64,000 nucleotides of DNA from an uncultured Wohlfahrtiimonas sp. (lineage in GTDB: Bacteria > Pseudomonadota > Gammaproteobacteria > Cardiobacteriales > Wohlfahrtiimonadaceae). Positions 48-41,032 of the stretch are shown in pieces. The notes below the pieces were generated by a model. It did not search any database and had not been told where the DNA came from. It saw only the letters and a program-made list of their open reading frames with translations. Numbering within the stretch: position 1 is the stretch's first letter; each line of letters opens with the position of its first letter. The stretch lies in NCBI GenBank assembly GCA_947630895.1, contig CANRJJ010000001.1:1-64000 (forward strand), read 5' to 3'. Both the position numbers and the translations under genes were made by a program.

Positions 48-1064
48 TTAGCGATCTTTTAAGCGCTTTAAAACCGCTAAAGTTTCTGGATCTGAAAGTC
101 GTTCTTCAAGGGATTTGCTCGTTTCCCCTAAAAACTTATCAAAATCACTTTGTGGCACAGATTGGATATAGCTTTCTAGTTTTTGGTGCAGTGCATCCCT
201 AAAACATAAATCACGGCTTGCCATTTTGACTCTGGCATCATGAATATGCGGTAGTAAATACGGATTCTTTGCAGCTTTGTCGATAATTGTATCAAGTTCA
301 GCCGTTGTTAATTTCCGCCCTAATGCTTGTGCTGTTTCTTTCATTTCAACCGCTAAACCATGTTCAAAGCTAGAAATCGCAGTGAGCACTTCGGCATACA
401 TCGTTTCCCTGACTTTATCATTTTTTTGGAGAGCCAAAATTTTCTTATATTCAGCTGCTTTTTCTAAAAAAACAACCTCATAAATCTTATCTGTATATCG
501 GCTATATTTCCATCGATTGGAATCCAAATAATGATTCAGCGCATCTGTAAATTCCTTGCGGTAGTTATACTCTTTATAAGCCGCAGGCAGGTACGTTTCA
601 TCTCTTTGGTTGATATATTTAGTATGTCCACCTGACTTTTGAGCAATGACATCTAAAACAATATCCAATATCTTGCTTCTGATCTGTTTTGCTTTATCGC
701 TTTCTGTCACAAGCATGGCAAGATTCAAAACGGTTTTAAAGGAAAACACGCCTAATGACGGAGCTTTGGATATGTCGACGACATAGATGTCGTCGACATA
801 AATTTTAAATTCTTTAAGACTTTTACCTTTTAAAATTTTATAGCCATTCTCAATCAACTCATCTTTATGATTTTCGATATATCGGTCAATGGTTCGCTCA
901 TCAACCTCTAAAATCTCTGCAACTTGTGCCTTAGTAAAGATCGCTTCATTCTGCCAATAAACCCCACCTAAATTTAAATGTGTTTCCACTTGTTCAAGTG
1001 CCACATGATTATTCAGAATATTTTGTCGACTGACATTGGATGTTGTCAAATCTTTCGCCATCAT
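48..1064 (-). CDS. DNA-binding protein of a type I R-M locus, possible antitoxin
   Basis: A 338-residue soluble protein. An N-terminal helix-turn-helix is likely around residues 45-75 ([19 protein letters not shown]), followed by a KilA/BRO-like central part that interprets a short peptide cue ([12 protein letters not shown]) and a helical C-terminal half. Its start overlaps the HsdM-HsdS stop in an ATGA junction, so the two are co-translated, and the next gene begins directly after its stop. Uncharacterised proteins of this kind are commonly seen inside type I R-M operons next to Doc-like toxins. I infer an antitoxin or regulatory role. It is not an HsdR: there are no helicase or nuclease motifs. 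Confidence 0.6.
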
Positions 1065-3262
1065 TTCACCTCTTCAGGCTTCGGAAAGCTCAACAATAAA
1101 TTACGATAATACTCATATTGTGATTGTCTTGCTTTTATCTCTAAATTTAATTCAGAAGATATATCTTTAATAAATGGTGTAAATAAATCAAGAATCTCAA
1201 CAATTTTTTCTTGTATACAAACAGATGGAACTGGTATTCGAATAGTTTTAAACCTAGCTTTGGATAAATTAATTCTAGTTACGCCATTTCCTGTTTTAAT
1301 AATTTGACTTCTTACTAATTCACAACGAAATAGATATTTAGAGAACTCAGGAATAATATCAATATTTTTATTAAATCTAATACCAAACGAGAAACTATTT
1401 AAATACACTCTACAATCAAATTTTGTTGTTACTGCTGATGACATGCCTATTTCTAACGCTGTTTCAGAAGATGCTGTAAATAAAACATCACCATACTCCA
1501 CTGTATTTTGCCTTTCTGTTTGTGATATTTTCACAGAATCTAAATAATTTTCATCTACTTCAATATTATTAAATATATTTTTATAAGGCACATATCTACA
1601 ATTACCATGCTGAAAATCATCCTTACTCTTTCCCGTTAATCCGCCATAAATTTCAGCTATTTCGCCTATTTCATACCATCGCATATCAGGACTATTCAAA
1701 ATCTCATCTATCTCTGCATGTAATTTAGAAAGCAAAGCTTCAATATTCCCTCTTAGCTCTGTTGTTTTTTGAATCATAGAAGTTAATTGACTATTTAACT
1801 GATTAATATTTATTTCTTGTTTTAGATTTTTTGCGTCAATGTAAGATGTAACTACAAGATTATAATCATTCTCCACAATATCATCATAATCAATAAGTTT
1901 GGCTACATATTCTATATTTTCTTTCTTAGCAAAGATGGTCAGAATCTTTTGAATATGATGAGGCTCTAAAATATTATTATTTGTAACTGGAGTAAAGAAA
2001 TCTTCACCACTTGCATCAATGAAATGAATATCAGTATTTTTCTTATTTTTGGCCAACACCAAAATATTCACAGAAATAGATGTACCAAAGAACAGATTAG
2101 GCGGTAATGAAATCACTGTTTCAATGTAGTTGTTGTCCACAAGGTATTTACGGATTGTGCGCTCTTTACCACCACGATAAAAAATACCAGGGAAGGTGAC
2201 GATTGCCGCACGGCCTTTAGCAGATAAATAACTGAGCGTATGCATTATGAATGCAAAGTCAGCTTTTGAATTAGGTGATAAAACACCTGCGGGTGCATAT
2301 CTTTCATCATTGATTAATGTCGGATCATTATCCCCAACCCACTTAATCGAATAAGGTGGATTCGATACAATGGCATCAAACGGCTTATCATCACCAAATT
2401 GAGGATTGATCAAAGTATCACCGAGCTTAATGTTAAATTTATCGTAGTTGATGTTATGTAAAAACATATTCATACGCGCAAGGTTATACGTTGTATGATT
2501 GATCTCTTGGCCATAGAAACCATCTTCAATGATGTGTTTATCAAACTGCTTTTTAGCTTGCAATAGCAATGAGCCTGAACCACAGGCAGGATCATAAATT
2601 TTATTGATTTTATCTTGGCCATGAATCGCAATTTGAGCGATCAAATTAGAAACTGTTTGCGGTGTGAAAAATTCACCACCTGATTTCCCTGCATTAGCTG
2701 CATAGTTAGAGATTAAGAACTCATAAGCATCACCAAATAGATCAATTTCATTTTCATCAAATTGGCGACCAAAATTTAACTCTTCAACGCCTTTTAATAC
2801 TGCTGCTAAGCGTTTATTTTTATCTGTAACAGTATTACCCAAACGATTGCTTGTGGTATCAAAGTCAGCAAACAATCCTTTAATATCATCTTCTGATGGA
2901 AAACCAATGGCTGAGTTTTCAATGCTTGCAAAAATCTCAGCTAAATCCGTATTCAGATGATCATTAGTATTGGCATTTGCTGCAACATTGGCAAACAATT
3001 GGCTTGGATAAATGAAGTAACCTTTGGTTCTAATGGCGTCTTCTTTTATTGCATCTGTAATGACTGAATCAGGCATTTCTGCATATTTAATGCTTTCATC
3101 ACCTGCTTCAATATAGATTGAAAAATTTTCACTGATGAAACGATAGAATAAAGCACCTAGAACATACTGCTTAAAGTCCCAACCATCAACAGAACCCCTA
3201 ACTTCACCTGCAATTTGCCAAATACGGCGTTGTAATTCTTGACGTTGTTGAGCGCTAGTCAT
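1061..3262 (-). CDS. Type I restriction-modification HsdM-HsdS fusion with one recognition domain
   Basis: This protein of about 733 residues joins a complete N6-adenine methyltransferase to a half specificity subunit. From the chosen start it shows the HsdM helical N-domain (about 1-150), GGEFFTP near 195, the SAM motif DPACGSG near 224 and the catalytic NPPY near 301. The HsdM part ends near 500. After a coiled-coil linker a single HsdS target-recognition domain begins near 527 ([14 protein letters not shown]) and ends with an S-type helix. The start is placed at 3262 because AAGGAAG lies just upstream; an open extension of 25 codons upstream has no such site. Separate HsdM and two-TRD HsdS are the usual layout, so two copies would probably pair to build a full specificity unit. 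No hsdR is visible; it may lie left of the window. Confidence 0.88.
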
Positions 3263-3356
3263 TATATACTTCCTTATACAATCTGATTCAGTAAAATAAT
3301 TCACGATCATACCAAAATCAGCAATATTTGGTAGCACTCAAGCAACTTCTCAATAT

Positions 3357-4352
3357 TTATCCCAATCTATCGGCTAGCTCTGAAACAGTTGGGTTGTAAT
3401 AGATCATTAATGACTTTGTATCACGATGTCCAATAACTTTAGCTAAATCTAATACGTCTAATTTTCGAGCCAATCTTGTACACGCTTCATGGCGTGAATC
3501 ATGAAATGTTAAATCAATGATATTGCATTCTTTGACTGCTTTTCTAAAAGTTGTGCAAACCGTATCAGCTGTAATATTGAATATATTGCCATGACTTTTA
3601 GGATTCATTAATTCAAATAACTCTCGTGCTCTTGAAGATAAAGGCACTTGCCTTCTATCGCCATTCTTTGTGGCTAATAACGTCACTGATCGCTCTCTTA
3701 ATGATACCTGTGACCAATCTAATGTAGCAATTTCAGATTGGCGCATTGCTGTTTCTAAAGCCAACAGAAATATCAATCCAACTTTATGTTTTTGCATTGT
3801 TGGTGGTTGATCAGCAAATTCTAGATTTTCTAATAGTAATTTAACTTCAAAATCAGATATACGTCTATTTCGTGGCGGTGGTGGCGTTAATCGCTTTAAA
3901 TCACGAGTGGGATTTTTCTCCATCCAATTCCATTCAATTCTAGCCATTTCAAATACAGCACTGAGCAAGGATATTTCACGATTTTTCGATGAATTAGAAA
4001 TATTACGGCTGTTACGCCATGTTGCAATATCTCTTGTAATCAGCGTATGCAATGGCACCTCTGAAGGAAATGATTTCATTCTGAGAAAGTAATTTAACCG
4101 ATTAATCTCATATTCCTTGCTTTTCTTAGTCGGTGAAACCTCATCACGATAACGGATCACAGCATCCTTAACCTTTTTAGTTGTGTCTATGGCTTGGCTT
4201 TTGCCCAAGCGTAAAGATTTTTCTGTTTTTTCCATCCACATTAAGGCATCTAAGTGACTATTAAAAGTCCTACTTTTAGTTTCTTTAATATAATTTCTTG
4301 TATATTGAGCTCTGGCTAGATATCTTTTACCACGCTTAGTAATACTGCCCAT
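3357..4352 (-). CDS. Tyrosine-recombinase integrase of element 1
   Basis: 331 residues, a normal length for a tRNA-targeting phage integrase. An N-terminal arm-binding region is followed by a SAM-like core-binding domain (about 60-150) and the catalytic domain. Catalytic residues are visible: Arg in ETAMRQSE, the HDSRH box, the His of GHRD, and the nucleophile Tyr in MIYYN. It is clearly homologous to the second integrase at 9473-10471 over the full length, including identical C-terminal stretches (EACTRLARKLDVLDLAK), so it probably recognises the same tRNA-Leu target. A ribosome binding site (AGGAGAGG) precedes the MGS start. It sits 8 bases after the AlpA-like gene and is read in the same direction as the R-M genes downstream. 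Confidence 0.93.
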   Translation of the reverse strand: MGSITKRGKRYLARAQYTRNYIKETKSRTFNSHLDALMWMEKTEKSLRLGKSQAIDTTKKVKDAVIRYRDEVSPTKKSKEYEINRLNYFLRMKSFPSEVPLHTLITRDIATWRNSRNISNSSKNREISLLSAVFEMARIEWNWMEKNPTRDLKRLTPPPPRNRRISDFEVKLLLENLEFADQPPTMQKHKVGLIFLLALETAMRQSEIATLDWSQVSLRERSVTLLATKNGDRRQVPLSSRARELFELMNPKSHGNIFNITADTVCTTFRKAVKECNIIDLTFHDSRHEACTRLARKLDVLDLAKVIGHRDTKSLMIYYNPTVSELADRLG

Positions 4353-4360
4353 ATCCTCTC

Positions 4361-4552
4361 CTAATATGAGTTGTTTCGTTGATTTTCAATGAATGCATCA
4401 ATATCTGCTTCAATCCATCTTGGGTCACCTCTATGACTAAAACGGATAGGATCAGGGAATCCTTCTAACTTAATAATTTGCTGTTTAATGTGGCCAACTG
4501 AAAATTTGAATTTTTCAGCTAAATCAGAGATCGTTAATAGATTTTTACTCAT
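4361..4552 (-). CDS. AlpA-like small DNA-binding protein, probable excision factor
   Basis: A 63-residue winged-helix/HTH protein of the AlpA/excisionase type (LLTISDLAEKFKFSVGHIKQQI, then a GDPRWIEADIDAFI recognition wing). AlpA proteins in P4-like elements activate or assist integrase-mediated excision. The start at 4552 is preferred over one four codons upstream because GAGGA lies at the right distance. It is packed between the helicase gene and the integrase in one operon, and has a counterpart at 11909-12094 in element 2. Confidence 0.8.
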   Translation of the reverse strand: MSKNLLTISDLAEKFKFSVGHIKQQIIKLEGFPDPIRFSHRGDPRWIEADIDAFIENQRNNSY

Positions 4553-4560
4553 GGTTATCC

Positions 4561-6339
4561 TCACTTTTTAAATACATAACAACGCATTGACTTAGATGCG
4601 ATAGGACTACGGACTGTTTTGACTGCGATGAATTGGTGCCTCACTGAGGTTTTAATGATTTTTTTAATTAATTTAATATCCTCAAGGGCTTGATGATTAA
4701 GCCTTGCATGAGGAAAGAACTCATTGAGATGAATTGCTATCTCATCTTCATTAGGTGAGTGATTGAAACTATAAGGCTGATTCGGTTGTACCAAGCTCTC
4801 AAAATATTCATACACATCCCAAAACTGATCTAATGCAGGATGATCACTCACAAGATCCCGCTCACGTTCAATCGCTATTTGATCAATGAAATTTACTACC
4901 TTTTGTTTAGTATTATCAGTAATGGGTAGAATTTCAGATAAAGCTTGTAAACCTGATAGCATCAAACCATGAGTAGATCCTATACGTTCCATTTTGACAC
5001 CTGGCAAAGCCATAATATGATCACGATTACTTTGAAAAGTCCGATCAACAATATCCATAATGAGTTGTTCATTCTTCAATACATAGAATAAAAACCCTGA
5101 AACTTCTTCAACTGATAAACGTGCTAAATAACTAGCAGCCTCTCGTGATTGTGCATTGTGTTGTGAACGATCAAAATTTAAGTAAACCAAACGAGATAAA
5201 ATGGCTTCTGACCCTGATACTTTCTGATTTTGAGAAATCACTACAGAACCTTTAAACGGTTCATCATCTGTAATGTTGGTATGATCTTTTACTGCTTTAA
5301 CACGAGGTGATCGACCATTAAATAATGGTTTCAATTCTTCAAAGCTAAAAGCCTTCTGTTTATGATTTGGACTATTTGGATCATTAATATCTCCTTCTAT
5401 AAATACTACAGGTAAATTGGATACTTGAGCTAAGGTTCGAGAACGTCCAACTCTAGTTGATGTGGTTGGATTGATGCCTTCATAGGATGAACGACCCACC
5501 AATGACCACAAAAACTCAATCAATAATGATTTGCCAGCACCGGCATCACCTGTTACTTCCAAAAAAGGAAACATCCCATATTTAAAACGTATTTGCTCTG
5601 CAAACAGAGAAAGCATCCAATAAGTTAGCGCCAATAAACCCTTATCACCAAAAACAGTGATAAAAGCATCGAACCATTCATTTTTATACTCAGTACTTGG
5701 ATTAAAATTGGATAACTCAAACGTACTTTTGACGTAACAATGTGGTAACACAAAAAAATCATCTGAATTTTTTTGATATAGCATACCTTGATAAACTGCA
5801 TGATCAGGATAAATATAAGCTTGAATATCGCTGAAATAGCCTACATAAGGTATCGTCTGTACTGTTTTAACTAATGGTGCTTGATCCAAAAATATTCTAT
5901 TTAATTGCTCTGTATTGCCTGTGTAAATTGCACCTGAAAGCGTTGCCATGATTTTTTGTTTAAAATCAGATTTGCTCGACAATTGCTTTGCCGTAAATGC
6001 ACTTTTGGCTTTTTTCGTCTTAGATTGTGCAATTTCTAAGTAATAAATACATTCTTCCGAACCTAATTCTACTTGTGAATATAGAATTGTGATCGAACAA
6101 TTGGCTATTTCACTTAATGCAATATGCTTCGTGAATGTGTTTAATTCAATTGTAGAATCAATAATTTTTAATTTAGTATCATCAACAATACACCAATAGC
6201 TTGTATAGCCAATCGAGACGTAAAAGGCTAAATCTGAGGTATTTGATTGCCACTTTTTAAAACACTCTTTCACCAAAGCCGTATTTGTTAATAGCTCTGG
6301 ATTATGTTGTTTGTTGTACCGTTCTTTTTTCTCTGACAT
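4561..6339 (-). CDS. P4-alpha-like/DUF927-type helicase, lacking the primase half
   Basis: A 592-residue replication ATPase. The P-loop is GDAGAGKS at about residue 265, followed by a Walker-B-like LPVVFIEGD and an arginine-containing box (ILSRLVYLNFD). The sequence aligns along its length with the C-terminal two thirds of the element 2 protein at 12097-14736 (matching SYEGINP/DYEGQNP, MALPGVKMERIGSTHGLML). It has no zinc finger or TOPRIM domain. It may drive replication of element 1 but would need primase activity from elsewhere, such as the host or the neighbouring prophage. It is translated upstream of AlpA and integrase. Confidence 0.82.
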   Translation of the reverse strand: MSEKKERYNKQHNPELLTNTALVKECFKKWQSNTSDLAFYVSIGYTSYWCIVDDTKLKIIDSTIELNTFTKHIALSEIANCSITILYSQVELGSEECIYYLEIAQSKTKKAKSAFTAKQLSSKSDFKQKIMATLSGAIYTGNTEQLNRIFLDQAPLVKTVQTIPYVGYFSDIQAYIYPDHAVYQGMLYQKNSDDFFVLPHCYVKSTFELSNFNPSTEYKNEWFDAFITVFGDKGLLALTYWMLSLFAEQIRFKYGMFPFLEVTGDAGAGKSLLIEFLWSLVGRSSYEGINPTTSTRVGRSRTLAQVSNLPVVFIEGDINDPNSPNHKQKAFSFEELKPLFNGRSPRVKAVKDHTNITDDEPFKGSVVISQNQKVSGSEAILSRLVYLNFDRSQHNAQSREAASYLARLSVEEVSGFLFYVLKNEQLIMDIVDRTFQSNRDHIMALPGVKMERIGSTHGLMLSGLQALSEILPITDNTKQKVVNFIDQIAIERERDLVSDHPALDQFWDVYEYFESLVQPNQPYSFNHSPNEDEIAIHLNEFFPHARLNHQALEDIKLIKKIIKTSVRHQFIAVKTVRSPIASKSMRCYVFKK

Positions 6340-6479
6340 GGACTTTCCTATATTTCAGGCAAAAGAATCCCGTAATCACTAAAACCAAAGTTTCAGTAAT
6401 TGATTGATAAAAATTTAGATAAAAGCATCCCCTAGCTAGTTAAAACTATTCTTTAAAATTAAGGGATTAATTGCTTAGA

Positions 6480-6650
6480 CTATGCTTGTTTCATTTGCTC
6501 ATCTATTGCATTTTTGATGATCAAATAGCAATAAGTTGATAAAGGGATCCCCTTAGATGCAGATTCTTCTTTCAACATTCGAATTTCTTCAGGTAAGAAT
6601 CGAACATTGACAACTTCCGTCCGCTTAATTGGATTAATCTTCTGTATCAT
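6480..6650 (-). CDS. Small ribbon-helix-helix (Arc/MetJ type) regulator
   Basis: A 56-residue protein translated from the minus strand. The strand EVVNVRFLPEE is followed by two helices (IRMLKEESASKG, STYCYLIIKNAI), the RHH layout. It is the first gene of the leftward operon of element 1 and sits directly opposite the HTH repressor gene across a 103-base control region. A similar 55-residue RHH protein occupies the same position in element 2 (15971-16138). A role as early-operon regulator or autorepressor is inferred. Confidence 0.72.
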   Translation of the reverse strand: MIQKINPIKRTEVVNVRFLPEEIRMLKEESASKGIPLSTYCYLIIKNAIDEQMKQA

Positions 6651-6753
6651 ATAAAATTTACCTTTAATTCTAGCTATCCACTATAATAGCTACTCATTTA
6701 GATATGATAATAGTAAACAAAGTTTTACTTGTCAATTAATTTTAAGGTAATCA
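6651..6753. promoter_or_regulatory. Divergent early control region of element 1
   Basis: This stretch separates the RHH gene (minus) from the HTH repressor gene (plus) and must hold both promoters. Visible features are a direct repeat TAGCTA at 6671 and 6687 (16 bases apart) and an inverted repeat AGTAAA/TTTTACT around 6712-6728. Layout and position match the operator region 16139-16293 of element 2, but the repeat sequences differ, which suggests separate immunity. Confidence 0.55.
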
Positions 6754-7065
6754 ATGTTTGGCTCTCGACTAAAAGAAGAACGTAACAAAGTAAAACTTTC
6801 ACAAGAAGTATTTGGTGCGATTGCGGGCGTAAGTAAACAATCGCAGATTAATTATGAAAAAGGTGAGCGTTACCCTGATCTAAAGTACCTACAAAACATT
6901 GCGGAACTGGGCTGTGATGTGCAATATATTATTACAGGTATTTCATCGTCTTCTCTCATTTCTAAAGAACATTCAGAAATACTTAACTTATTTAACAATG
7001 CTGATCCCTCTCTACAAAAAGCAGCTATTCAAGTACTTAATACTAAACTTGGTAAGGACTCATAA
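6754..7065 (+). CDS. Cro/CI-type HTH repressor lacking the protease domain
   Basis: A 103-residue XRE-family protein. The HTH (residues 1-60: LKEERNKVKLSQEVFGAIAG, QINYEKGERYPDL) is closely similar to the N-terminus of the 233-residue repressor at 16294, including the C-terminal cap GCDVQYIITG. It stops shortly after the HTH and has no S24 peptidase. It could be a constitutive repressor not cleaved in the SOS response, or depend on another signal. The next gene starts 3 bases after its stop. Confidence 0.8.
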   Translation: MFGSRLKEERNKVKLSQEVFGAIAGVSKQSQINYEKGERYPDLKYLQNIAELGCDVQYIITGISSSSLISKEHSEILNLFNNADPSLQKAAIQVLNTKLGKDS

Positions 7066-7068
7066 ATA

Positions 7069-7374
7069 ATGAAACACGACGAAAAACGAACTCTAAATGT
7101 TATCGATCATGATATAAAAAAAGCAGTGAATAAAAATATATACTCACAATACAAAACTCATATTCTTGTGAGTATATTTTTAACTGTATTACTCTTGATT
7201 TCATCTCTGATAACATCCCACTCTTCTGCTGCCACACCATCGGTTGCATTTATCATTGGTTGCTTATTCATGGTAATGACTATCGTATTAAATAAACTAT
7301 ACAAAAAAGCTCGCCAACAAGAGCAAAACTCTATGATAGAAATCCAACAAGCTGTAAAAAGCTTTTATTCCTAA
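7069..7374 (+). CDS. Small membrane protein with two transmembrane segments
   Basis: 101 residues. A charged cytoplasmic N-terminus is followed by hydrophobic segments at about 33-52 and 60-80, then a charged tail. It is co-transcribed with the element 1 repressor. I do not recognise the family. Its place beside the lysogeny repressor suggests a lysogenic-state function such as exclusion of other phages, but nothing in the sequence proves that. Confidence 0.55.
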   Translation: MKHDEKRTLNVIDHDIKKAVNKNIYSQYKTHILVSIFLTVLLLISSLITSHSSAATPSVAFIIGCLFMVMTIVLNKLYKKARQQEQNSMIEIQQAVKSFYS

Positions 7375-7439
7375 TCTGATACATAATTACACAGTGTACT
7401 TGTATAAGAAATCGTTAGATTTTAATTTTCTAAAGGGTA

Positions 7440-7512
7440 TTAGGGCTTTGCCCTAAGCACTACGCATGGCATATCCAAAATATATTTTTGATATCATGCG
7501 TAATCGTGCCTA
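7440..7512. other. Nested inverted repeats, candidate transfer origin (oriT)
   Basis: A perfect 7-base-pair hairpin TTAGGGC-TTT-GCCCTAA (7440-7456) is directly followed by a larger imperfect inverted repeat. Its arms GCAC and TACGCATG (7457-7468) match CATGCGTA (7495-7502) and GTGC (7506-7509). Neither hairpin ends in a T run, so a simple terminator is unlikely. Such paired hairpins occur at oriT sites of mobilizable plasmids, and a MobC-like gene lies about 900 bases downstream. The nick site is not identifiable by eye. Confidence 0.4.
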
Positions 7513-7800
7513 TATTTTTTTGAATTCTCTTTTCTGACTATCTCATAGCATAAATCTAAACTACCAACGACTATAAAAAAATAAATAAATATCAATTATT
7601 TAAATAAAAAATTAGTATGATAATAAAAAATTTATATTATTTAATTTTAGTTTATTTGATTTTTATTGACCATTTTTCTTCATTAACCAAGCTAAATTTT
7701 AGTTAATTTTACTAATTATGATTTTATTTGATTTTTAAGCTTTATCGCAGCTATATAATTGTTATAATGAAAAAATATTAATTATTTTATTGGCACTATA
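7513..7800. other. AT-rich intergenic region with a promoter
   Basis: Very AT-rich. No open frame of note was found. A plausible -10 element (TATAAT) sits near 7762-7767, just upstream of the gene at 7801. Nothing else recognised. Confidence 0.4.
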
Positions 7801-8361
7801 ATGAACTTATATAACAAGTTAGAACGAATTGTTAACGGTGAAGAAAAACTATATTTTTCTAATCTTGCTCGATTTATTGCTTTTTATTTTGATGACATCG
7901 AGAAGCAAATTAAAACACAAACATTACGAGATATTGCATCATCAATTAACCAATTTATAGATCGATCCTTTGAATCCAAAAATTTATTCATTAAATCTAA
8001 CATTAAAGAAAATTCTTTTTATGTTGCCTTTAAAAAAGAAAAAGACAAAAGAAATATGACACAAACTCACCATAGTAAGTCTAGTCATGAGCAGCCTATA
8101 AGATCTGAGAGTATCCAACAACAAGATGATAAATCACTATTAACTAATTTATTAAATGAATGCGGTTATCAACTCGATGATTATTTATGGTTAGAAAAAG
8201 TTCTCGAATACTACCCATTAAACAAAACTGTATTGAAAAAAATATTAACTAATCAGATAAGTGAAGAAGAGCTCAATCAAATAAATTTAAGTAGAATTGA
8301 TCATTTTGAGAATATAAAAAAAGTTAACAACTATATTTCACAAAAACTTCCTGCAAAATAA
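7801..8361 (+). CDS. Hypothetical protein of element 1, linked to the mobC-like gene
   Basis: 186 residues, no signal peptide or membrane segment. An N-terminal helical part (about 1-80) is joined by a Gln/Ser-rich linker (residues 90-115) to a second helical part. The family is not recognised. It lies 48 bases upstream of the MobC-like gene in the same direction, so a relaxosome or replication accessory role is possible but unproven. Base composition is very AT-rich even for this window. Confidence 0.5.
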   Translation: MNLYNKLERIVNGEEKLYFSNLARFIAFYFDDIEKQIKTQTLRDIASSINQFIDRSFESKNLFIKSNIKENSFYVAFKKEKDKRNMTQTHHSKSSHEQPIRSESIQQQDDKSLLTNLLNECGYQLDDYLWLEKVLEYYPLNKTVLKKILTNQISEEELNQINLSRIDHFENIKKVNNYISQKLPAK

Positions 8362-8409
8362 CTTAAAGAATCTGGAATTTTTTTAAATAATCTACAATAC
8401 ACACTCAAT

Positions 8410-8796
8410 ATGCATAAAAAGGTAAGTAATTTGAAAAAACAAAATAGAAGCATCCAAGTAGGCATTAGATTTACAGAAGAAGAATTTGCACCCTATAAAT
8501 CTGCAGCAGAAAAGCTAGGTCTGTCGAATGCTGAATTATTAAGAGCTGTGCTTCTTAATAATTTTGATCCTAAAATACATGACAAGAAAACCAGAAAAGA
8601 CATCGAGAAACTGCTTTTTTATTTTAATAAGGCTAGTAACAATATCAATCAATTAGCTAAAGTTATTAATACTCAAGCTAAGACTAGCAATATAGATACA
8701 AAAAAATTAATTCAGTTTTACTCAAAATTAAATAGAGTTTATGACAGCTTTGAAAATGGTATCGAACATGCAAAAAAATCAAGTGATCCACGCTAA
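8410..8796 (+). CDS. MobC-like relaxosome accessory protein
   Basis: 128 residues. The N-terminal part (SIQVGIRFTEEEFAPYKSAAEKLGLSNAELLRAVLL) has a ribbon-helix-helix pattern, and the C-terminal half carries LLFYFNKASNNINQLAKVIN, the signature region of MobC family proteins of mobilizable plasmids and islands. MobC helps the relaxase open oriT. No relaxase gene is present in the visible part of element 1, so it would have to be supplied in trans or lie left of the window. A start nine codons further in is possible. It is unusual next to phage-type integrase and replication genes. Confidence 0.72.
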   Translation: MHKKVSNLKKQNRSIQVGIRFTEEEFAPYKSAAEKLGLSNAELLRAVLLNNFDPKIHDKKTRKDIEKLLFYFNKASNNINQLAKVINTQAKTSNIDTKKLIQFYSKLNRVYDSFENGIEHAKKSSDPR

Positions 8797-8870
8797 GATT
8801 TAAGCATCATCTTCTAATTGGCTTATTAATTACTATAAATAATATACAAAAGAGATAAACGTTCTTCTTT

Positions 8871-8885
8871 TTGGCTTTAAGCCAA
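8871..8885. repeat. Perfect inverted repeat after the mobC-like gene
   Basis: TTGGCTT-T-AAGCCAA, 7-base arms around a single base. It follows a T-rich run and lies 75 bases after the stop at 8796. A protein-binding site is more likely than a hairpin because the loop is one base. Confidence 0.4.
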
Positions 8886-8983
8886 TACATCGGAAATCCA
8901 TTACAACATAACACTTAGCAAAAACTCTATATAACTAATTGTAATTTATAAATATATTTTGTTATAAAAATCTATTACATGGC

Positions 8984-9157
8984 GTTACAAATATTACATA
9001 TTTCATTACATCATTGATTTTAAATCAAAAATAATCAATTTTGTGTTATCTCAATTTTATAACAATGTAATGAGTTGTAACAAAATTTTATAACAGAAAA
9101 AAATTATAATAATTAATAGGTTATATATTAAATATCATCTTTGTAACGATGTAATGA
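8984..9157. repeat. ATGTAATGA repeat cluster, candidate replication or partition site
   Basis: The motif TCATTACATC (9003-9012) recurs inverted as AATGTAATGA (9064-9073) and GATGTAATGA (9148-9157), with related ATTACAT and TGTAAC words between 8984 and 9147. The region is otherwise extremely AT-rich and has no gene from 8797 to the int2 start at 9473. Its position near the end of element 1 parallels the AATATTAC cluster near the end of element 2. P4-type alpha helicases act on iteron-bearing origins, so this is a candidate origin. Confidence 0.42.
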
Positions 9158-9267
9158 CTTTCCGAAGCATATTAGATATTTTTCAATAGATTTCTTTGGT
9201 TTAAAAACGGTTTTAAATCAGAAACAAACCATCAAAATCAGCAGATGATCAAAAAGTAGTCATTTTA

Positions 9268-9286
9268 TTGAACAGTTTATTGAACA
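9268..9286. repeat. Paired TTGAACA repeats, candidate integrase arm sites of element 1
   Basis: TTGAACA at 9268-9274 and 9280-9286, 12 bases apart, one helical turn. They lie 57-75 bases from the att core. The related word TTGGAAC occurs with similar spacing at both ends of element 2. Arm-type sites of tyrosine integrases are short phased repeats of this kind. Confidence 0.42.
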
Positions 9287-9308
9287 CTCGAACCTACAGA
9301 TGTAAAAA

Positions 9309-9328
9309 AGCCCGCTGTTTAGCGGGCT
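9309..9328 (-). terminator. Element-borne terminator facing the tRNA att site
   Basis: Stem AGCCCGC/GCGGGCT with a 6-base loop. A run of six A on the plus strand becomes the U tract when read on the minus strand. It lies 14 bases outside the 14-base att copy, the same place as the terminator after the intact tRNA-Leu. It would have terminated the tRNA before element 2 inserted. Confidence 0.75.
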
Positions 9329-9342
9329 CTAGAGCTTTTATT

Positions 9343-9356
9343 TGGTACCGAAGGAG
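9343..9356 (-). other. attL of element 2 / junction with element 1 (tRNA-Leu 3' end copy)
   Basis: TGGTACCGAAGGAG is identical to the last 14 bases (with CCA) of tRNA-Leu at 39123-39136. The sequences diverge immediately beyond. The two copies bracket the whole prophage from the integrase to the region after the portal gene, as expected for attL and attR. Confidence 0.85.
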
Positions 9357-9451: not shown

Positions 9452-9469
9452 TTGGAACAAATGTGGAAC
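9452..9469. repeat. GGAAC repeats, candidate integrase arm sites at the left end of element 2
   Basis: TTGGAAC at 9452-9458 and GTGGAAC at 9463-9469, 11 bases apart, immediately upstream of the integrase start at 9473. The same word is repeated three times at 39034-39063 near attR. Confidence 0.42.
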
Positions 9470-9472
9470 TAT

Positions 9473-10471
9473 ATGGGCTCTGTAACAAAAAGAGGTGAGA
9501 AGTTTTTAGCTCGTGCAAGAGTTACGCATAACTACATCACCAAGAATAAAGCTAAAACTTTTAACACTCAAGCTGAAGCATGGTCATGGATAGAGCGTAC
9601 TGAAAAAGATATGCGCCTAGGCGAACGTGAAGAAGTTGATGAAACCAAAACATTAAAAGATGCTTTGATACGTTACATGAAAGAAGTATCACCCACGAAA
9701 GAAAGCGTAGATTGGGAAATCACAAAGATCAAATCATATTTGAATCAAGATTATTGCCCTTTGCACTATCCTCTTGTCAAAATCACACCTCGTGTAATGC
9801 GCGAATGGCGCGATAAACGGGATGTATCCAACTCATCTAAAAATAGAGAAATGACATTATTCAGTGCTCTTTTTCAAACTTGCATTGAAGATTGGATGTG
9901 GATGCAAACAAATCCTGTACGTTCAATTCGCAGATTAAAAGAGCCAGAACATCGTGATCGTCGTTATGCTGATTATGAAATTGATCTTATTTTGAATAAT
10001 TTAGGCTTTGAAGAGAATAAAACCCCAACAACACAAAAAGGCGTGGTTGCAATTATATTTTTGATTGCACTTGAAACAGCAATGCGACAAGGTGAAATTG
10101 TGAATACGACTTGGAATAATATTTTTTTGAATGAAAAATACTTGAGAATCCCAAATTCTAAAAATGGTTATCGTCGCAATGTGCCACTTTCTCGTAGAGC
10201 CATTGAACTATTTGAAATGATGGAACCTAAAAAATCTGGTCCTGTTTTTGATATTACCGCAGATACAGTGAGCACAATGTTTAGAAGAGCTGTAGCACAA
10301 TGTGGAATTGTTGATTTAACTTTTCACGATACCAGGCATGAAGCATGCACCAGATTAGCAAGAAAATTAGATGTTTTAGACTTAGCGAAAATGACTGGCC
10401 ATCGTGATTTGAAATCATTGATGATTTACTACAATCCAACGGCATCAGAATTAGCAGATAGGTTGGGGTAG
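9473..10471 (+). CDS. int: Tyrosine-recombinase integrase of the P2-like prophage
   Basis: About 332 residues. Catalytic residues are visible: Arg in ETAMRQGE, the HDTRH box, the His of GHRD and the nucleophile Tyr in MIYYN near the C-terminus. The start at 9473 (MGSVTKRG) is chosen because it aligns with the start of the element 1 integrase; a frame start seven codons upstream exists, and neither has a strong ribosome site. It lies just inside attL and reads into the prophage. The candidate arm sites overlap its leader, so the integrase may repress itself. The convergent next gene starts one base after its stop. Confidence 0.93.
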   Translation: MGSVTKRGEKFLARARVTHNYITKNKAKTFNTQAEAWSWIERTEKDMRLGEREEVDETKTLKDALIRYMKEVSPTKESVDWEITKIKSYLNQDYCPLHYPLVKITPRVMREWRDKRDVSNSSKNREMTLFSALFQTCIEDWMWMQTNPVRSIRRLKEPEHRDRRYADYEIDLILNNLGFEENKTPTTQKGVVAIIFLIALETAMRQGEIVNTTWNNIFLNEKYLRIPNSKNGYRRNVPLSRRAIELFEMMEPKKSGPVFDITADTVSTMFRRAVAQCGIVDLTFHDTRHEACTRLARKLDVLDLAKMTGHRDLKSLMIYYNPTASELADRLG

Positions 10472-11721: not shown

Positions 11722-11912
11722 TAAGCATTCCTCATTGCTTTGAGCTTATTTAACTGCTGCTTAGTTTTGTTAATTTCATCAATTGTTAATTTGTAATCTT
11801 TGGATTGGATGTTGCGAGTATCAAATAATTGAAAACGTTTCTTTTCAAGATAAGCTAGCAAACGCTGAACTCCTGCAATACGCTCATTGATTAATAATTT
11901 ATCCATAATCAA
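11721..11912 (-). CDS. Small coiled-coil phage protein
   Basis: 63 residues, highly charged and helical (RIAGVQRLLAYLEKKRFQLF, then DEINKTKQQLNKLKAM), suggesting a coiled coil. Overlaps the AlpA-like gene by 4 bases upstream (ATGA-type) and the 38-residue gene downstream. Function unknown. Confidence 0.5.
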   Translation of the reverse strand: MIMDKLLINERIAGVQRLLAYLEKKRFQLFDTRNIQSKDYKLTIDEINKTKQQLNKLKAMRNA

Positions 11913-12094
11913 ATCTCCTTCCTGGTATCAAAATACTTCAACAAATCTGAGTGTTTCCAACGTGGTGCACCTTTTGGCACAAGCTTGATTGGCTTTGGGA
12001 ACTCAGGCTGTGTGATGATGTAACGTTTTGTGTGCGACAAGGAATAACCCACCAAATCCGCAATATCTTTAATGCTTAATAGTTTTTCGTTCAT
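11909..12094 (-). CDS. AlpA-family regulator / excision factor of the prophage
   Basis: 61 residues with the AlpA pattern: LLSIKDIADLVGYSLSHTKRYI (HTH), PEFPKPIKL, then GAPRWKHSDLLKYF. AlpA-family proteins activate excision or act as Cox/Xis-like factors. It is encoded 2 bases after the primase-helicase stop, as in element 1 where AlpA also follows the helicase. Confidence 0.82.
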   Translation of the reverse strand: MNEKLLSIKDIADLVGYSLSHTKRYIITQPEFPKPIKLVPKGAPRWKHSDLLKYFDTRKEI

Positions 12095-12096
12095 AA

Positions 12097-14736
12097 TTAA
12101 GACCCTGTTTTCAAATTAGGTTTACGCGCCAAAAAGTAACAGCGCAGCGTTTTAAATGGTTTCTGCCCTTGCTGTAAAAGCTTCGCATCGTCATATTTCG
12201 AGTTCACATTCTTGTTATGCTCTAAGTATTTGTAACGAATAGAATTTGGCAGTAGTTTTTTAATGGTTTTCATGTCGTCCAATGGCTGTTTCAACTCACC
12301 ACAAAGCGAATAAAATTGGTTTAAATTCAGTGCAATGTAATCATCATGGCGCGAATGATTAACCTGGAAACCTTGAGATTCCAAATAATCAAATGCATCC
12401 CAAAATTGCTCTAAGCTTGGATGATCTTGCTTCAATTCCACTTGGCGTTCAGATGCGATTCTGCAAATATAATTGCGTGTATCTATGATCAAATTTTCTG
12501 GAATATCAATGATCATTGCCAATGCATCTAACAATGACAACATCAATCCATGCGTTAATCCAATTCGTGTCACATTCATATCAGGTAGAGCCATAATGCG
12601 TGCTTCGTACTCTTTGAACACTTCTTCTAATTTGTTTAACACTTCATTTTCATGCTTGAGTACTTCCAATAGAAAACCTGAACAATCCGCCATATCCATT
12701 GTTTCCAATCGATGTGCTTTTTCACGTCGTGCAGGTGTATGGCGTGAAGTGTCAAAATGGATGTAAACCAAGCGCTGCAACAATGCCAATTGGTTATCAC
12801 GCGAGCCTTCAGTAATGGCGCGCTCATTTTGTGAAAGCACCAATGCAGAACGGAACTTAGGCATGTGTGTTTTGTTACCCATATTCTTTTGACCAGTTGT
12901 GCGTAAGTAACCACCATCAAACAACGTTTTTAAATCTTCAAGATTAAAGCCTTCACATTCAATCATGACTGTTGGCAAGTTGCCCACTTGTGCCAATGTT
13001 CTTAAGTAACCAACCTTTGAACCATTGTTTGGGTTCTGCCCTTCATAATCCGCACGGCCAAGAATCTTCCACAAGAAACGCAATAATGAAGATTTACCCG
13101 CATTGGCATCACCTGTTAATTCCAAAAATGGATAAGATCCAAACTTTGCACGAATCTGTTCAGCAAACAAAGCACCAAGCCAATAAGCCAAAGCAGTAAT
13201 CCCTTTCACGCCATAAACATCAAAGTAATCTTCAGCCCATGTGTTTTGGTATTCCATTGCAGGATTAAACTTATCCATATCAAATGTGCTTTTCACATAG
13301 ATATTCTTTGGCAGCTCAAAATACTCTTCAGAGTTAATCTTAAAAACTTGGCCATTCTTCACAGCAAAATTCTTAAAAATATAAGCATTCACTTCATTGG
13401 CATAACCAAAGAAATCGATTGTTTGCACATCACGCAATGATTCAGCCTTCATTGAGTAAATGTTTTCTAAGTGCTTTGTTTCACCTGTAAAAATTGCACC
13501 TGTGACTGTGTTCATAATGCGCGCTTTAAACTCACTCGCACTGGCTAAGTGCTTAGTGCTGAATGCATCTTTATTTTGAGATTTATTGGTTTTGACGTTT
13601 AAAAAGTAATACTTTTCATTCGTGCCAATCTCTTGCTGAGCGTACAGAAAATCAATGGTACAGTTGGCGATCTGTGTCACGGTACAAGCTGATTTAAATG
13701 AATCAACCGCTTCGCCATCTTCATTTTCTTCCTTACCCTTGTTCATGGCTTCAGCATCTACTTTGATCCAATAAGTTTTTTGGCCAAACTCCAAAAAGAA
13801 CTGATTGAAGCTATTGCGCTCATACATTAATTGAGCTTTATCCAATGGTGATTTAGCCGTGAGTAATGCACCGTTATAAAAATAACGCTCCATATCTTCA
13901 GGTTTAAAACGATCATATAAATGTTGATCATTCCAATCTTCATCACTGCCCGTTAAAGCAACTTTAATGTCACGAAAACCAATTTCACGCGCCTTTTCCA
14001 CAAACTTTAAACAAGCTCTACGGCCCACAATGTCATTGTCTAAAGCAATCACCAATTCCAAATTTGGCTTTTGATGAAAAATAGTTTTTAAAGTATCTTC
14101 AGGAAAGTTATTGGCACTCATTGCACTGATGGCATGAAAACCATGATGCAATAAAGCGATTGCATCAAATATGCCTTCCACCACCCACAATTGCTTAACC
14201 TTAGTCACATCTAAATCAGGTGCTTGCCAAGCCAATCCCTTATATGAATAACCTGGTTTAAATCTTGCTTTTTGTTCAAAGCTTTCTAAGTTTTCAATTA
14301 AGCGTTCCCAAAAGCCATCACCAGGCATATTGAAACGCACCGTTGGTGTTGTCGCTTTTGTTGTAAAATCTGTGTATGATTCTTGTGAAAAGCTATTCAC
14401 TAATGTTGTATTAAAGCCCCTTGCTTCCCTCAAGTATGCTTTAGCAATTGCACGTGAATCAGTTTCCATTTCCTTTGCATAACGCTTAGAAAAGTTGTCA
14501 AACACATCTGGATACTGTTCTCGTGCTGATATTTCATAACCACATGAGTTGGCTTTATCACACTGAATCTTCCAAGGATTATCAGCAAAGATCCATAATG
14601 ATCTTTTACCACAACTTGGGCATGTACCCTTTTTATAGCGTTCAGCATGTGATCTTGGTTGTGGCTCTGCACCTGTTTCAGCAACAAAGCGACGAATGAT
14701 TTCATCACGCTGATTACGTTCCATTTCTTTAAACAT
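12097..14736 (-). CDS. P4-alpha-like primase-helicase (zinc finger, TOPRIM, DUF927-type ATPase)
   Basis: 879 residues, the replication initiator of the prophage. An N-terminal zinc finger (CPSCG near 38, paired with CDKANSC near 60) precedes a TOPRIM domain (acidic VVEGIFDAIALL near 185 and ALDNDIVGRR near 230). A linker leads to the helicase with P-loop GDANAGKSS near 555, a Walker-B-like LPTVMIECEG and LLQRLVYIHFD. This fusion corresponds to phage P4 alpha rather than to the P2 rolling-circle protein A, which is absent. It overlaps the thioredoxin-like gene by 8 bases. The C-terminal two thirds match the helicase of element 1. Confidence 0.88.
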   Translation of the reverse strand: MFKEMERNQRDEIIRRFVAETGAEPQPRSHAERYKKGTCPSCGKRSLWIFADNPWKIQCDKANSCGYEISAREQYPDVFDNFSKRYAKEMETDSRAIAKAYLREARGFNTTLVNSFSQESYTDFTTKATTPTVRFNMPGDGFWERLIENLESFEQKARFKPGYSYKGLAWQAPDLDVTKVKQLWVVEGIFDAIALLHHGFHAISAMSANNFPEDTLKTIFHQKPNLELVIALDNDIVGRRACLKFVEKAREIGFRDIKVALTGSDEDWNDQHLYDRFKPEDMERYFYNGALLTAKSPLDKAQLMYERNSFNQFFLEFGQKTYWIKVDAEAMNKGKEENEDGEAVDSFKSACTVTQIANCTIDFLYAQQEIGTNEKYYFLNVKTNKSQNKDAFSTKHLASASEFKARIMNTVTGAIFTGETKHLENIYSMKAESLRDVQTIDFFGYANEVNAYIFKNFAVKNGQVFKINSEEYFELPKNIYVKSTFDMDKFNPAMEYQNTWAEDYFDVYGVKGITALAYWLGALFAEQIRAKFGSYPFLELTGDANAGKSSLLRFLWKILGRADYEGQNPNNGSKVGYLRTLAQVGNLPTVMIECEGFNLEDLKTLFDGGYLRTTGQKNMGNKTHMPKFRSALVLSQNERAITEGSRDNQLALLQRLVYIHFDTSRHTPARREKAHRLETMDMADCSGFLLEVLKHENEVLNKLEEVFKEYEARIMALPDMNVTRIGLTHGLMLSLLDALAMIIDIPENLIIDTRNYICRIASERQVELKQDHPSLEQFWDAFDYLESQGFQVNHSRHDDYIALNLNQFYSLCGELKQPLDDMKTIKKLLPNSIRYKYLEHNKNVNSKYDDAKLLQQGQKPFKTLRCYFLARKPNLKTGS

Positions 14737-15752: not shown

Positions 15753-15950
15753 TTAATTATCGTTTTTAGCTTTTGTTTCTACTAAAAAGTGCGAGAGTGT
15801 TTCATGCGTAACAAATGTTGAAGAGCAAAAGATGTTTGAACATTGATAACGTTTTTCTCGTGTGTTATCCGTTAGCACTCTTGAAATTATTGTTCTAGCT
15901 TTTCTGCCACATTTAGGACAACTAAACGAATGAGGTGTTCTTCTGTGCAT
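15753..15950 (-). CDS. ogr: Ogr/Delta-type zinc-finger activator of late transcription
   Basis: 65 residues with the Ogr pattern: CPKCG, then RTIISRVLTDNTREKRYQC, CSNIFC, STFVTHETLSHF. P2 Ogr and P4 Delta bind upstream of late promoters and recruit RNA polymerase through its alpha subunit. The start is placed at 15950 because GGAGG lies 5 bases upstream, although the frame is open for eight more codons to 15974. In P2 ogr lies after gene D; here it sits in the early operon after the RHH regulator, which would make late expression follow directly from lifting early repression. A palindrome between late genes O and P is its likely target. Confidence 0.85.
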   Translation of the reverse strand: MHRRTPHSFSCPKCGRKARTIISRVLTDNTREKRYQCSNIFCSSTFVTHETLSHFLVETKAKNDN

Positions 15951-15970
15951 TTTTCCTCCATTCATTTGTT

Positions 15971-16138
15971 TCATTGTGAATACGCATTTAAAGATTTAAT
16001 TAAGAGTGCATAAGCAACTGTTGCTACTGGCTTACCCTCCTTTCTTGCTAACCTTTTCAATCGGTTATGCTCTTCTTTTGTGACTCTTAATCTTAAAGAT
16101 TCGGAGCGCGAGAGCTGTGTAATGATTGTATTTTCCAT
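15971..16138 (-). CDS. Small ribbon-helix-helix regulator of the prophage
   Basis: 55 residues. SESLRLRVTKEEHNRLKRLARKEGKPVATVAYALLIKSL fits the strand-helix-helix pattern of RHH repressors. First gene of the leftward early operon; its stop overlaps the following gene start as ATGA. Directly upstream lies a tandem array of 12-base repeats, the usual kind of target for RHH dimers, so it probably controls its own operon. Confidence 0.75.
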   Translation of the reverse strand: MENTIITQLSRSESLRLRVTKEEHNRLKRLARKEGKPVATVAYALLIKSLNAYSQ

Positions 16139-16293: not shown

Positions 16294-16995
16294 ATGATTG
16301 ATATAGGCTTGAGATTAAAAGAATCTCGGATAGCATTAAAAATGACTCAAAAAGAGTTCTCTGCAGTAGCTGGTGTTAGCGATGCTGCACAAGTCAATTA
16401 TGAGAAAGGTGAGCGTAAACCAGATACTCAATATTTAAGTAATATTGCTAAATTGGGCTGTGATATCCAATATATTGTTACTGGTGTTAAATCTGATAAT
16501 CCTGATCCTATCGTTTATGACAATGCAGGCAATTTAGTAGATTTAGATGAATTCTGCTTTGTTCCTCGTTATGACGTTTGTGCCAGTGCTGGTAATGGAT
16601 CAGCAATCAACGCTGAAACTTATGTATTTAGCATGGCATACCGTAAATATTGGGTAGAAAAATACCTTCAGGTTAATTATAAAAACCTGATTGCTATTAC
16701 AGCGCGTGGTGATTCCATGATTGGCTTAATTGAAGATCGTGATGTGATGCTAATTGATACAGCCAATAAGCTCTATACAGATGGTATTTATGTATTAAGA
16801 CTTAATGATGATTTGATCGTTAAAAGCGTGCAAAAATTACCGAATAATATCATTGAAATTTCAAGTAGCAATCCAATATACAAGCCATTTCAAATTGATA
16901 TGAATAATCCACCTAATGACTTTGAAATAATTGGTGCTGTGGTACATACTGAGCCAGGTACATTATTAAGAAATAGAAGAGTAATTAGAGATTAA
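16294..16995 (+). CDS. CI/LexA-type prophage repressor with S24 autoprotease
   Basis: 233 residues. HTH of the XRE type at 5-60 (MTQKEFSAVAGVSDAAQVNY), a linker, then an S24 peptidase domain: nucleophile Ser in ARGDSM (about residue 145) and general-base Lys in DLIVKSVQ (about 190). Such repressors cleave themselves on RecA stimulation, giving SOS induction. It keeps the lysogenic state and is divergent from the early operon. Its first 60 residues resemble the short repressor of element 1. Confidence 0.92.
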   Translation: MIDIGLRLKESRIALKMTQKEFSAVAGVSDAAQVNYEKGERKPDTQYLSNIAKLGCDIQYIVTGVKSDNPDPIVYDNAGNLVDLDEFCFVPRYDVCASAGNGSAINAETYVFSMAYRKYWVEKYLQVNYKNLIAITARGDSMIGLIEDRDVMLIDTANKLYTDGIYVLRLNDDLIVKSVQKLPNNIIEISSSNPIYKPFQIDMNNPPNDFEIIGAVVHTEPGTLLRNRRVIRD

Positions 16996-38268: not shown

Positions 38269-39033
38269 CTTAGGGTGGGTATGTTCAAAAGAAGTAATAT
38301 TGGTAATCAGTTTTTAAAAACAGCCTTAAAAGTGTTGATACGGCTATCTTTCAAGAGAATGCCAAAATGTAATATTTAAGTAATTTTAAGCTATATTTTA
38401 TTACCACTTTTTATATCTATATGAATTTTAAAGAATTTTTAACTTAAAAATATAACAATGAAAATGTAATATTGATTACAGAAATGTTACTAAAATATTA
38501 CTTTTTAGAGTTTAAAATAACTATTTACTTTCAATAGCTTGCAATAGGTTCTTAAAAAATATTACTAATATTACTTCTTTTTTTAATACCCCAAAGGTTT
38601 TGTGATTCTATAAACGCGTAAGGGAAATATAACGTAAAAAGTTATTGTAGTATTCTCAAAATAATCGTATCTTTGATTTAGACGACTGATTCATCATGCA
38701 ATCAGCATTTATGCCAGCCAACGCGATGTTTGGTACCGATTTCAGGCATGTTTTCACCGCAAAAAATAACACTTTCCGACACAAAGCCCGCCGTGGCGAG
38801 GTGATTTTTTCTGCAAGAAATTTATTTTGGAATTTATTTATTATTTCTTGAAGGCCTGGTGAATAATTGGCACCAATTACCCATCACTTTTGGTTTGAGA
38901 AGCGTACGTTTTAATTTATTTCTACTAATCATTGTTCAATTATTAATAACTCCAACAAATTTATAAGTATGAGCACGATTAATTTAAGAAATGGATCCTG
39001 GTAATTACCAGTAACTTTGATCAAGTCCTTTTA
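38269..39033. other. Non-coding right end of the prophage (cos and replication-site candidates)
   Basis: No convincing gene. In P2 the cos site lies just beyond Q. A GC-rich patch at 38787-38802 contains GGCGAGG (38795-38801), which agrees with the first bases of the P2 cohesive end. To its left is the AATATTAC repeat cluster. A 10-base palindrome GGTAATTACC is at 39000-39009. Confidence 0.45.
38366..38574. repeat. GTAATATT/AATATTAC repeat cluster, candidate origin
   Basis: The 8-mer GTAATATT occurs at 38369-38376 and 38466-38473 (each inside AATGTAATATT) and its reverse complement at 38494-38501, 38558-38565 and 38567-38574. Five copies in 206 bases of AT-rich non-coding DNA. Compatible with iterons for the primase-helicase. 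Confidence 0.48.
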
Positions 39034-39122: not shown

Positions 39123-39208
39123 TGGTACCGAAGGAGAGACTCGAACTCTCACGCTTTTAAAGGCAGAGGATTTTGAATCCTCCGTGTCTACCATTCCACC
39201 ACTCCGGC
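39123..39208 (-). tRNA. tRNA-Leu (CAA), with attR in its 3' end
   Basis: 86 bases including an encoded CCA. Acceptor stem GCCGGAG with CTTCGGT, anticodon stem-loop GAGGATT-CAA-AATCCTC, a class II variable arm, and T loop GTTCGAGTC. Anticodon CAA reads UUG. The last 14 bases are the attachment core shared with 9343-9356; the gene stays intact after integration. Confidence 0.95.
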
Positions 39209-40892: not shown

Positions 40893-41032
40893 TTTTCCTC
40901 TTCAAATTTAATATCAAAAACGGAATCATGATAAACAATCGCGACACAAATACCTATTAAATCTATGATAATCATTGCCATTCATGCTCTTTTTGGCTTA
41001 ATCTCTCATCTTTCTTTAATATTGATAATGTC

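Follow-up and report, generated by a model that had tools for sequence, protein, structure and literature searches.

The DNA analysed here, called the window, covers 64 kb from the start of contig C1 in the 2.13-Mb draft genome of an uncultured Wohlfahrtiimonas sp. (GenBank GCA_947630895.1, CANRJJ010000001.1). At its left end, beside a P2-like prophage, lies an integrated island, element 1, in which phage-type control and replication genes are combined with a predicted plasmid-type origin of transfer (oriT) and a MobC protein. Element 1 is probably an integrative mobilizable element without a relaxase (an iOriT element) built on a P2-like phage control and replication chassis. Window base 1 is the end of the contig, so element 1 extends beyond the window, and its gene content is given here as what is assembled.

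Genes and insertion site of element 1

From the contig end inwards, the reverse strand encodes a 338-residue helix-turn-helix (HTH) protein of the restriction operon with weak ORF6N or anti-repressor-like similarity (48-1064), a type I HsdM regarded as cargo (1061-3337; N6_Mtase 2.5e-114, HsdM_N 1.2e-15, Methylase_S 7.8e-14), a 331-residue tyrosine integrase (3357-4352; PF00589 4.6e-23), a small AlpA-like HTH protein that is probably an excisionase or activator (4361-4564), a 592-residue helicase (4561-6339), and a ribbon-helix-helix (RHH) regulator that is kept in relatives (6480-6650; PF21983 1.2e-5, under the curated cut-off). The HsdM carries a single fused specificity domain, and the assembled part showed no separate hsdS. 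The AlpA-like protein has weak HTH_41 and HTH_17 matches and a match to excisionase phrog_66 (3.5e-5) and none to PF05930 (AlpA); it is AlpA-like in function nonetheless. The helicase, with Walker A at residue 264, lacks the zinc and TOPRIM primase half and aligns to positions 283-889 of the 895-position primase family phrog_1139 (1.8e-148).

The forward strand encodes an HTH repressor without the S24 protease (6754-7065; HTH_3 7.1e-8; 93% identity in the related genome G017), a small, fast-evolving protein judged by eye to be membrane-bound (7069-7374), a 186-residue open reading frame (ORF) of unassigned function (7801-8361), and a MobC relaxosome accessory protein (8410-8796; NikA-like 5.8e-11, MobC 1.4e-5). 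The predicted oriT (7409-7511, forward strand) lies between the membrane protein gene and the 186-residue ORF. That ORF had no match among plasmids and none to protein families above cut-off; its positional counterparts in G017 and W. larvae share 36% over 61 residues with each other and hardly resemble it. At the right end, AT-rich conserved non-coding DNA (8880-9190, no strand) contains many ATTACA/TGTAAT words and may be a replication origin. ATTACA occurs 7 times there against a shuffle mean of 1.0, the word having been chosen after looking; some 6-mer was equally frequent in 53 of 300 shuffles, so iterons were rejected and the region's conservation is what is solid.

The attachment (att) core, GGTACCGAAGGAG, is the 3' end of tRNA-Leu(CAA). 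Its four genomic copies, at C32:20299, C32:23076, C1:9344 and C1:39124, share the same orientation within their contigs. The copy at C32:23076 is the left att of element 1, the copy at 9344-9356 (forward strand) separates element 1 from the prophage (9357-39123, no strand), and the last (39124-39136) lies inside an intact tRNA-Leu(CAA) (39123-39208, reverse strand). These repeats show integration at tRNA-Leu. C32 terminates within hsdR (EcoR124_C 1.6e-70; 74% to residues 731-1032 of an Enterococcus plasmid HsdR), C1 starts just past the hsdMS operon, and one Lactococcus plasmid record matches both hsdM and hsdR. Joining C32 to C1, we infer an array of att, a 2.8-kb HNH/methyltransferase/HNH unit, att, element 1, att, prophage, and att/tRNA. 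HsdR residues 1-730 were not found anywhere in the assembly, so at least ~2.2 kb of element 1 is unseen; the sole HSDR_N match in the genome, tried as the missing N-terminus, is a different gene on C7, and the first 15 codons of the frame at C1:1-46 are unlike the start of the compared HsdR. The att-flanked 2.8-kb unit (C32:20312-23075) has no integrase; its methyltransferase gene is bracketed by two HNH nuclease genes, and it is possibly a cis-mobilizable cargo unit.

The predicted oriT and MobC

Apart from the right end, 7409-7511 is the best conserved non-coding DNA of element 1 and aligns with G017, W. larvae and a further carrier, G011; neither this site nor mobC had a place in the earlier note on this DNA. 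The site comprises two hairpins and a CGTGCCT at 7505-7511, with the nic position inferred between 7508 and 7509. BLAST against 72,556 plasmid records returned W. chitiniclastica pBM-Y (4e-15) and Photobacterium pPH1 (0.01), while matches to Providencia plasmids were discarded as 23 bases at chance level. The G017 copy matched 29 plasmids. Among them are 27 E. coli plasmids (best 2e-5), some of which have no mobilization gene in the stretch inspected, as expected of orphan-oriT plasmids, and Erwinia pEU30 (2e-4), in which the site is flanked by the mobC-LPD7 relaxase genes and the stbB genes. The site is also present on P. syringae-group plasmids. Ten MobC-bearing plasmids were inspected (9 out of 802 mobC matches, and pEU30), and a GCAC-hairpin-CGTGCCT unit on the strand opposite to mobC, ~65-90 bp upstream of that gene, was present in all of them except paNv_UK1, which had no unit by a relaxed pattern. 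Shuffled versions of the 192 kb scanned held ~1.0 match to that pattern each, and one of its matches in pBM-Y is apparently due to chance. Upstream of the mobC on the resident plasmid-like contig C64 lies a sequence that is related to the site but not the same.

All 16 aligned copies have GCAC or GCGC, an internal hairpin region and a terminal CGTGCCT, and keep the outer GCAC/GTGC stem, in one case via a G-U pair. Single-stranded DNA folds of six copies had z-scores of -3.8 to -7.1, and none of 200 shuffles of each was as stable. A strict pattern, which would miss plasmid-type variants, matched 4 of 18 family genomes with one copy each, on the contigs with the short helicase (in W. larvae, the contig with the helicase N-terminal part). 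It matched none of the other 14 family genomes, several of which have full-length primases, an absence that carries weight although divergent variants would escape the pattern; a reversed-pattern control had no match in family genomes, and the prophage has no copy of the site. A predicted oriT is found in all four family genomes with a short-helicase element. By its sequence, its position in MobC plasmids and its fold, 7409-7511 is predicted to be an oriT. Cloned fragments adjoining MOBP relaxases of Pseudomonas savastanoi act as functional oriTs, according to the part of that report consulted (PMC9791958), and they may be of this family or of another.

The W. chitiniclastica resistance plasmid pBM-Y, typed as non-mobilizable, has two copies of the oriT (3746-3854 and 40918-41032) and no annotated relaxase, and may be mobilizable in trans.

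Searched against plasmid proteins, the MobC of element 1 matched 802 records, with 45% identity to an Arsenophonus plasmid MobC (3e-26), and its nearest relatives belong to the plasmid family that carries its oriT. No relaxase was found on the assembled part of element 1, at least ~2.2 kb being unassembled, and the genome's PF03432 matches are on C64 and C95 only. Besides mobC, C64 carries mod/res-like restriction genes, a replication-type ORF and a relaxase gene that runs off the end of the contig; judged by eye, the Res-like ORF of C64 is similar to one beside the G011 element. C95 (5.9 kb) encodes a 998-residue MobA/MobL relaxase-helicase.

Relatives and the neighbouring prophage

Of 18 family genomes, 9 have a relative of the helicase, as do 17 of 32 genomes of the order. 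Short frames occur in the window's genome (G000; 597 residues), G017 (600), G011 (623) and W. larvae (frameshifted, 170 + 445), compared with 812-913 in full-length relatives in the family; a 367-residue frame near a contig end in G002 cannot be judged. The W. larvae frameshift, at ~codon 160, is in both contigs covering the spot (L040 5079-5731, L038 3-1369). Short-helicase elements have the order RHH-helicase-AlpA-integrase in common, with a divergent repressor and a small membrane protein, and the same gene set occurs in two genera. The integrase of element 1 is 82% identical to that of the G017 element and 95% to that of W. larvae. Element 1 and the G017 element carry type I restriction as cargo; W. 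larvae has a DNA methyltransferase (by eye) together with ORFs resembling restriction enzymes, and next to the G011 element is a Res-like ORF (labelled by eye from its likeness to C64). In G017 no prophage intervenes: the element lies directly against tRNA-Leu and, by eye, the same neighbouring gene of the chromosome. In W. larvae the att separates the element from a prophage-type integrase (90% identical), which is the tandem order seen in the window.

In a tree of 15 helicases, in which long branches were flagged, the short forms of the window, G017 and W. larvae group together (100/100), and next to them (95/91) stand G011 and a full-length copy from W. larvae, not the clade of the neighbouring prophage; because of this grouping, element 1 is probably no recent offshoot of its neighbour. 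The ratio of nonsynonymous to synonymous substitution rates (dN/dS) is 0.079 for the helicase against G017 and 0.083 for its C-terminal part against W. larvae, 0.064 and 0.091 for the integrase, 0.065 for the repressor, 0.137 for the RHH regulator, 0.018 for the AlpA-like protein (dS saturated) and 0.51 for the membrane protein against G017; the 186-residue ORF is too diverged for the estimate. The shortened helicase and repressor are under purifying selection, and with 0.06-0.09 in core genes element 1 does not look decayed. Among viral contigs no helicase relative was found by a search that reached close relatives only. In G017, an integrase, an AlpA-like gene, a near full-length primase and hsdM lie together at C11 8768-14261 (L067) and form a further candidate island; the 20 kb inspected there had no match to the prophage virion proteins used as queries.

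The neighbouring prophage is P2-like by its capsid (2.5e-73), sheath, terminase, portal, baseplate hub and Ogr. Its integrase (9452-10471, forward), AlpA-like protein (11909-12094, reverse), primase-helicase (12097-14736, reverse; Zn ribbon 3.3e-4, Toprim_2 2.1e-12), Ogr (15753-15974, reverse), RHH protein (15971-16138, reverse) and repressor (16294-16995, forward; Peptidase_S24 3.5e-18) have their control-module order in common with element 1, save for the inverted orientation of the prophage integrase and some additional genes lying in between. The earlier note had recognized this order and read element 1 as a stripped satellite of its neighbour. Its descriptions of the reduced modules hold, since the zinc ribbon and TOPRIM half are in the prophage primase only and the element 1 repressor is an HTH alone; the loss of the cleavable half suggests that element 1 is not released directly by the SOS signal that releases the prophage. 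It was also right that no virion or Ogr gene is present: none was found in the assembled part, Ogr/Delta being in the prophage only and the genome's one portal match being the prophage's. By eye, no repeated motif that could be a common operator was seen in the two control regions. The helicase family also occurs, among 21 phage records, in Smp131, phi3 and Dobby, which we take to be P2-like phages, so a helicase gene in both partners is ordinary for such phages. The claim that both carry P4-type replication genes is correct as to a related gene in each and needs correcting as to type, the element 1 helicase being of a phage primase family with no P4-alpha match. An acyltransferase-SGNH gene (19059-20957) lies against the prophage tail genes and is likely a surface-modifying passenger.

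In P4-like satellites, a cohesive-end site (cos) is common to satellite and helper. Downstream of their portal gene, the prophages have AT-rich DNA followed by a GC-rich block (CGCCGTGGCGAGGTG in the window, 38789-38803, forward), with similar blocks by eye in L050-L052, partly in L055 and L056, and less so in L053 and L054; from its position and its likeness to the P2 cos, this block is predicted to be the cos. A search tolerating as many as 4 mismatches did not find it in either part of element 1, in the C32 unit or in the relatives' contigs L037, L040 and L044, the hsdR gap being unsearchable; the comparison proposed in the earlier note gave no common cos. L038 has one 4-mismatch match, at chance level (0.23 per shuffled 9.3-kb element). 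A BLAST search with the prophage right end gave a weak match in L040 (2e-4) overlapping the common att region, and otherwise only E > 0.1. The integrase was the single marker found out of six P4-like markers tested, as taken from the sections seen of PMC8628076; Psu, delta, epsilon and alpha (PF07455, PF04606, PF10554, PF03288) had no match at E 0.1 among ten element proteins, and the helicase did not match the P4-alpha model used there. Of the genes used to recognize PICMI satellites, int was found, PF12728, one of two AlpA models, fell under its cut-off, and DUF3987/DUF5906 (prim) had no match.

Route of transfer

Since a predicted plasmid-type oriT is found in all four carriers and MobC in element 1, where no packaging signal was recognised, spread by hitching on conjugation appears more likely than spread inside virus particles. 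The integrase and AlpA-like protein would insert and excise element 1 at tRNA-Leu(CAA), judging by their families and the att repeats, and the excised circle could start replication in the AT-rich DNA of the right end, using its own helicase and priming by the host. An incoming conjugative or resident mobilizable plasmid would then supply a MOBP relaxase to nick 7409-7511, aided by the element's MobC, and the single strand would exit through the plasmid's channel, as oriT and MobC homology imply. Restriction systems would be exchangeable cargo, and loss of the primase half and repressor protease half an inherited, selected trait of the element lineage.

Several observations weigh against this reading. 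MobC was seen in one of the four elements (two of the four are on truncated contigs), and mobC and oriT of element 1 are ~900 bp apart on one strand, unlike the adjoining, oppositely oriented pair in the plasmids inspected. The retained helicase and repressor exceed the needs of a passive oriT passenger, and the hsdR gap may hide further content. No VirB4-type gene was found in this genome, and one in 18 genomes of the family has one; an LPD7 search had no match, but its controls were silent too. The consensus fold of 16 copies shows no covariation in the oriT stem because the stems are constant, and the outer stem of the G017 copy is not closed in the minimum-energy fold. The four strict matches are not independent evidence, because the pattern was built from those four sites, and it also matches ten viral contigs, apparently by chance; as candidate related elements these were rejected, having no relative of the window genes used as queries.

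Known systems resemble element 1 in part. Like iOriT elements (as far as described in the sections seen of PMC11389934), it has an integrase, a chromosomal att and a predicted oriT, and its assembled part showed no relaxase or mating-pair genes; it differs in its P2-like phage-family chassis (integrase, AlpA-like protein, helicase, RHH regulator and repressor) and in having kept MobC. The MobC/LPD7-relaxase plasmids (pEU30, pArsFIN12, P. syringae p1) have the same oriT unit and a homologous MobC but are non-integrative, with the relaxase beside mobC, and the orphan-oriT plasmids (pBM-Y, colicin K plasmids) have the same unit but are non-integrative and carry oriT only. In literature searches confined to open-access papers, no title or abstract described an oriT-bearing element on this phage chassis, and a PHASTER survey of Wohlfahrtiimonas prophages does not mention one in the part available (PMC9301364).

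A more specific history is tentative, and we favour it less: a P2-like phage would have lost its virion genes, TOPRIM half and SOS-cleavable repressor half, gained a plasmid oriT (here also MobC), and switched helper class, so that it is now borne by conjugation, with an att in common with a phage cousin that it possibly exploits, maybe using both routes.

Element 1 is unlikely to be a P4- or PICMI-like satellite that relies on the neighbouring P2-like phage for packaging. Its integrase/AlpA/helicase/RHH/repressor module and att are common to the prophage, and W. larvae also has it in tandem with a P2-like integrase. P4-like satellites likewise combine an integrase, AlpA-like regulator, replication helicase, small size and defence cargo with a P2-like phage nearby (PMC8628076, in the part seen), but element 1 has no psu, delta, epsilon or alpha match, no cos-like block, and a truncated helicase of a phage primase family, and classification as P4-like was rejected on markers and the cos-like block while the satellite role was kept as a rival. 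PICMIs, as characterized in the portion seen of PMC10803314, are minimal satellites with int, alpA, prim and a few genes and no packaging genes, a set close to that of element 1, which leaves room for a satellite role; they are Vibrionaceae elements with a prototype at fis, while element 1 has an oriT, restriction cargo and no primase half. AH14b, a proposed satellite with integrase, AlpA-like and primase genes, is packaged by its neighbour (PMC4936722, sections seen), so the alternative is a real one. In two of the four carriers, G017 (81% complete) and G011 (93% complete), nothing matched a P2-type portal, and the G017 element has no adjacent prophage; the predicted plasmid-type oriT is in all four. 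Of the stripped satellite, kinship of control modules, the lack of virion genes and the same att survive; the markers go against it, and packaging by the neighbour finds no support in the cos search or the carriers.

About equally improbable is a hybrid hitcher, induced and packaged by the P2-like phage and also mobilized by plasmids. Selected phage control and replication genes do coexist with oriT and MobC, but no packaging signal was recognised and nothing indicates that the prophage induces element 1. A decaying remnant of a phage or plasmid co-integrate without present mobility is very unlikely, since MobC without a relaxase, the W. larvae helicase frameshift and the assembly gap are set against dN/dS of 0.06-0.09 in core genes versus G017 and W. 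larvae, a gene set in two genera, and differing restriction cargo in W. larvae and G011. The earlier note had named structural genes to the left as the sign of an independent decayed phage; the assembled left side holds, bar the hsdR gap, the type I restriction operon and an att, and that idea was rejected.

The proposed origins of hitcher elements are loss from a helper and gain of a helper signal (PMC11389934, part seen). If the relaxase-less mobilizable reading is true, element 1 would unite both routes in one lineage, as a phage-type element minus virion genes plus a conjugation signal. Phage-like genes and a P2-like neighbour are then insufficient to call a satellite, and an oriT should be sought before small islands are filed as such. 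The spread of restriction systems in this group would be tied to conjugation, a claim that can be tested by a mating assay with a 110-bp fragment.

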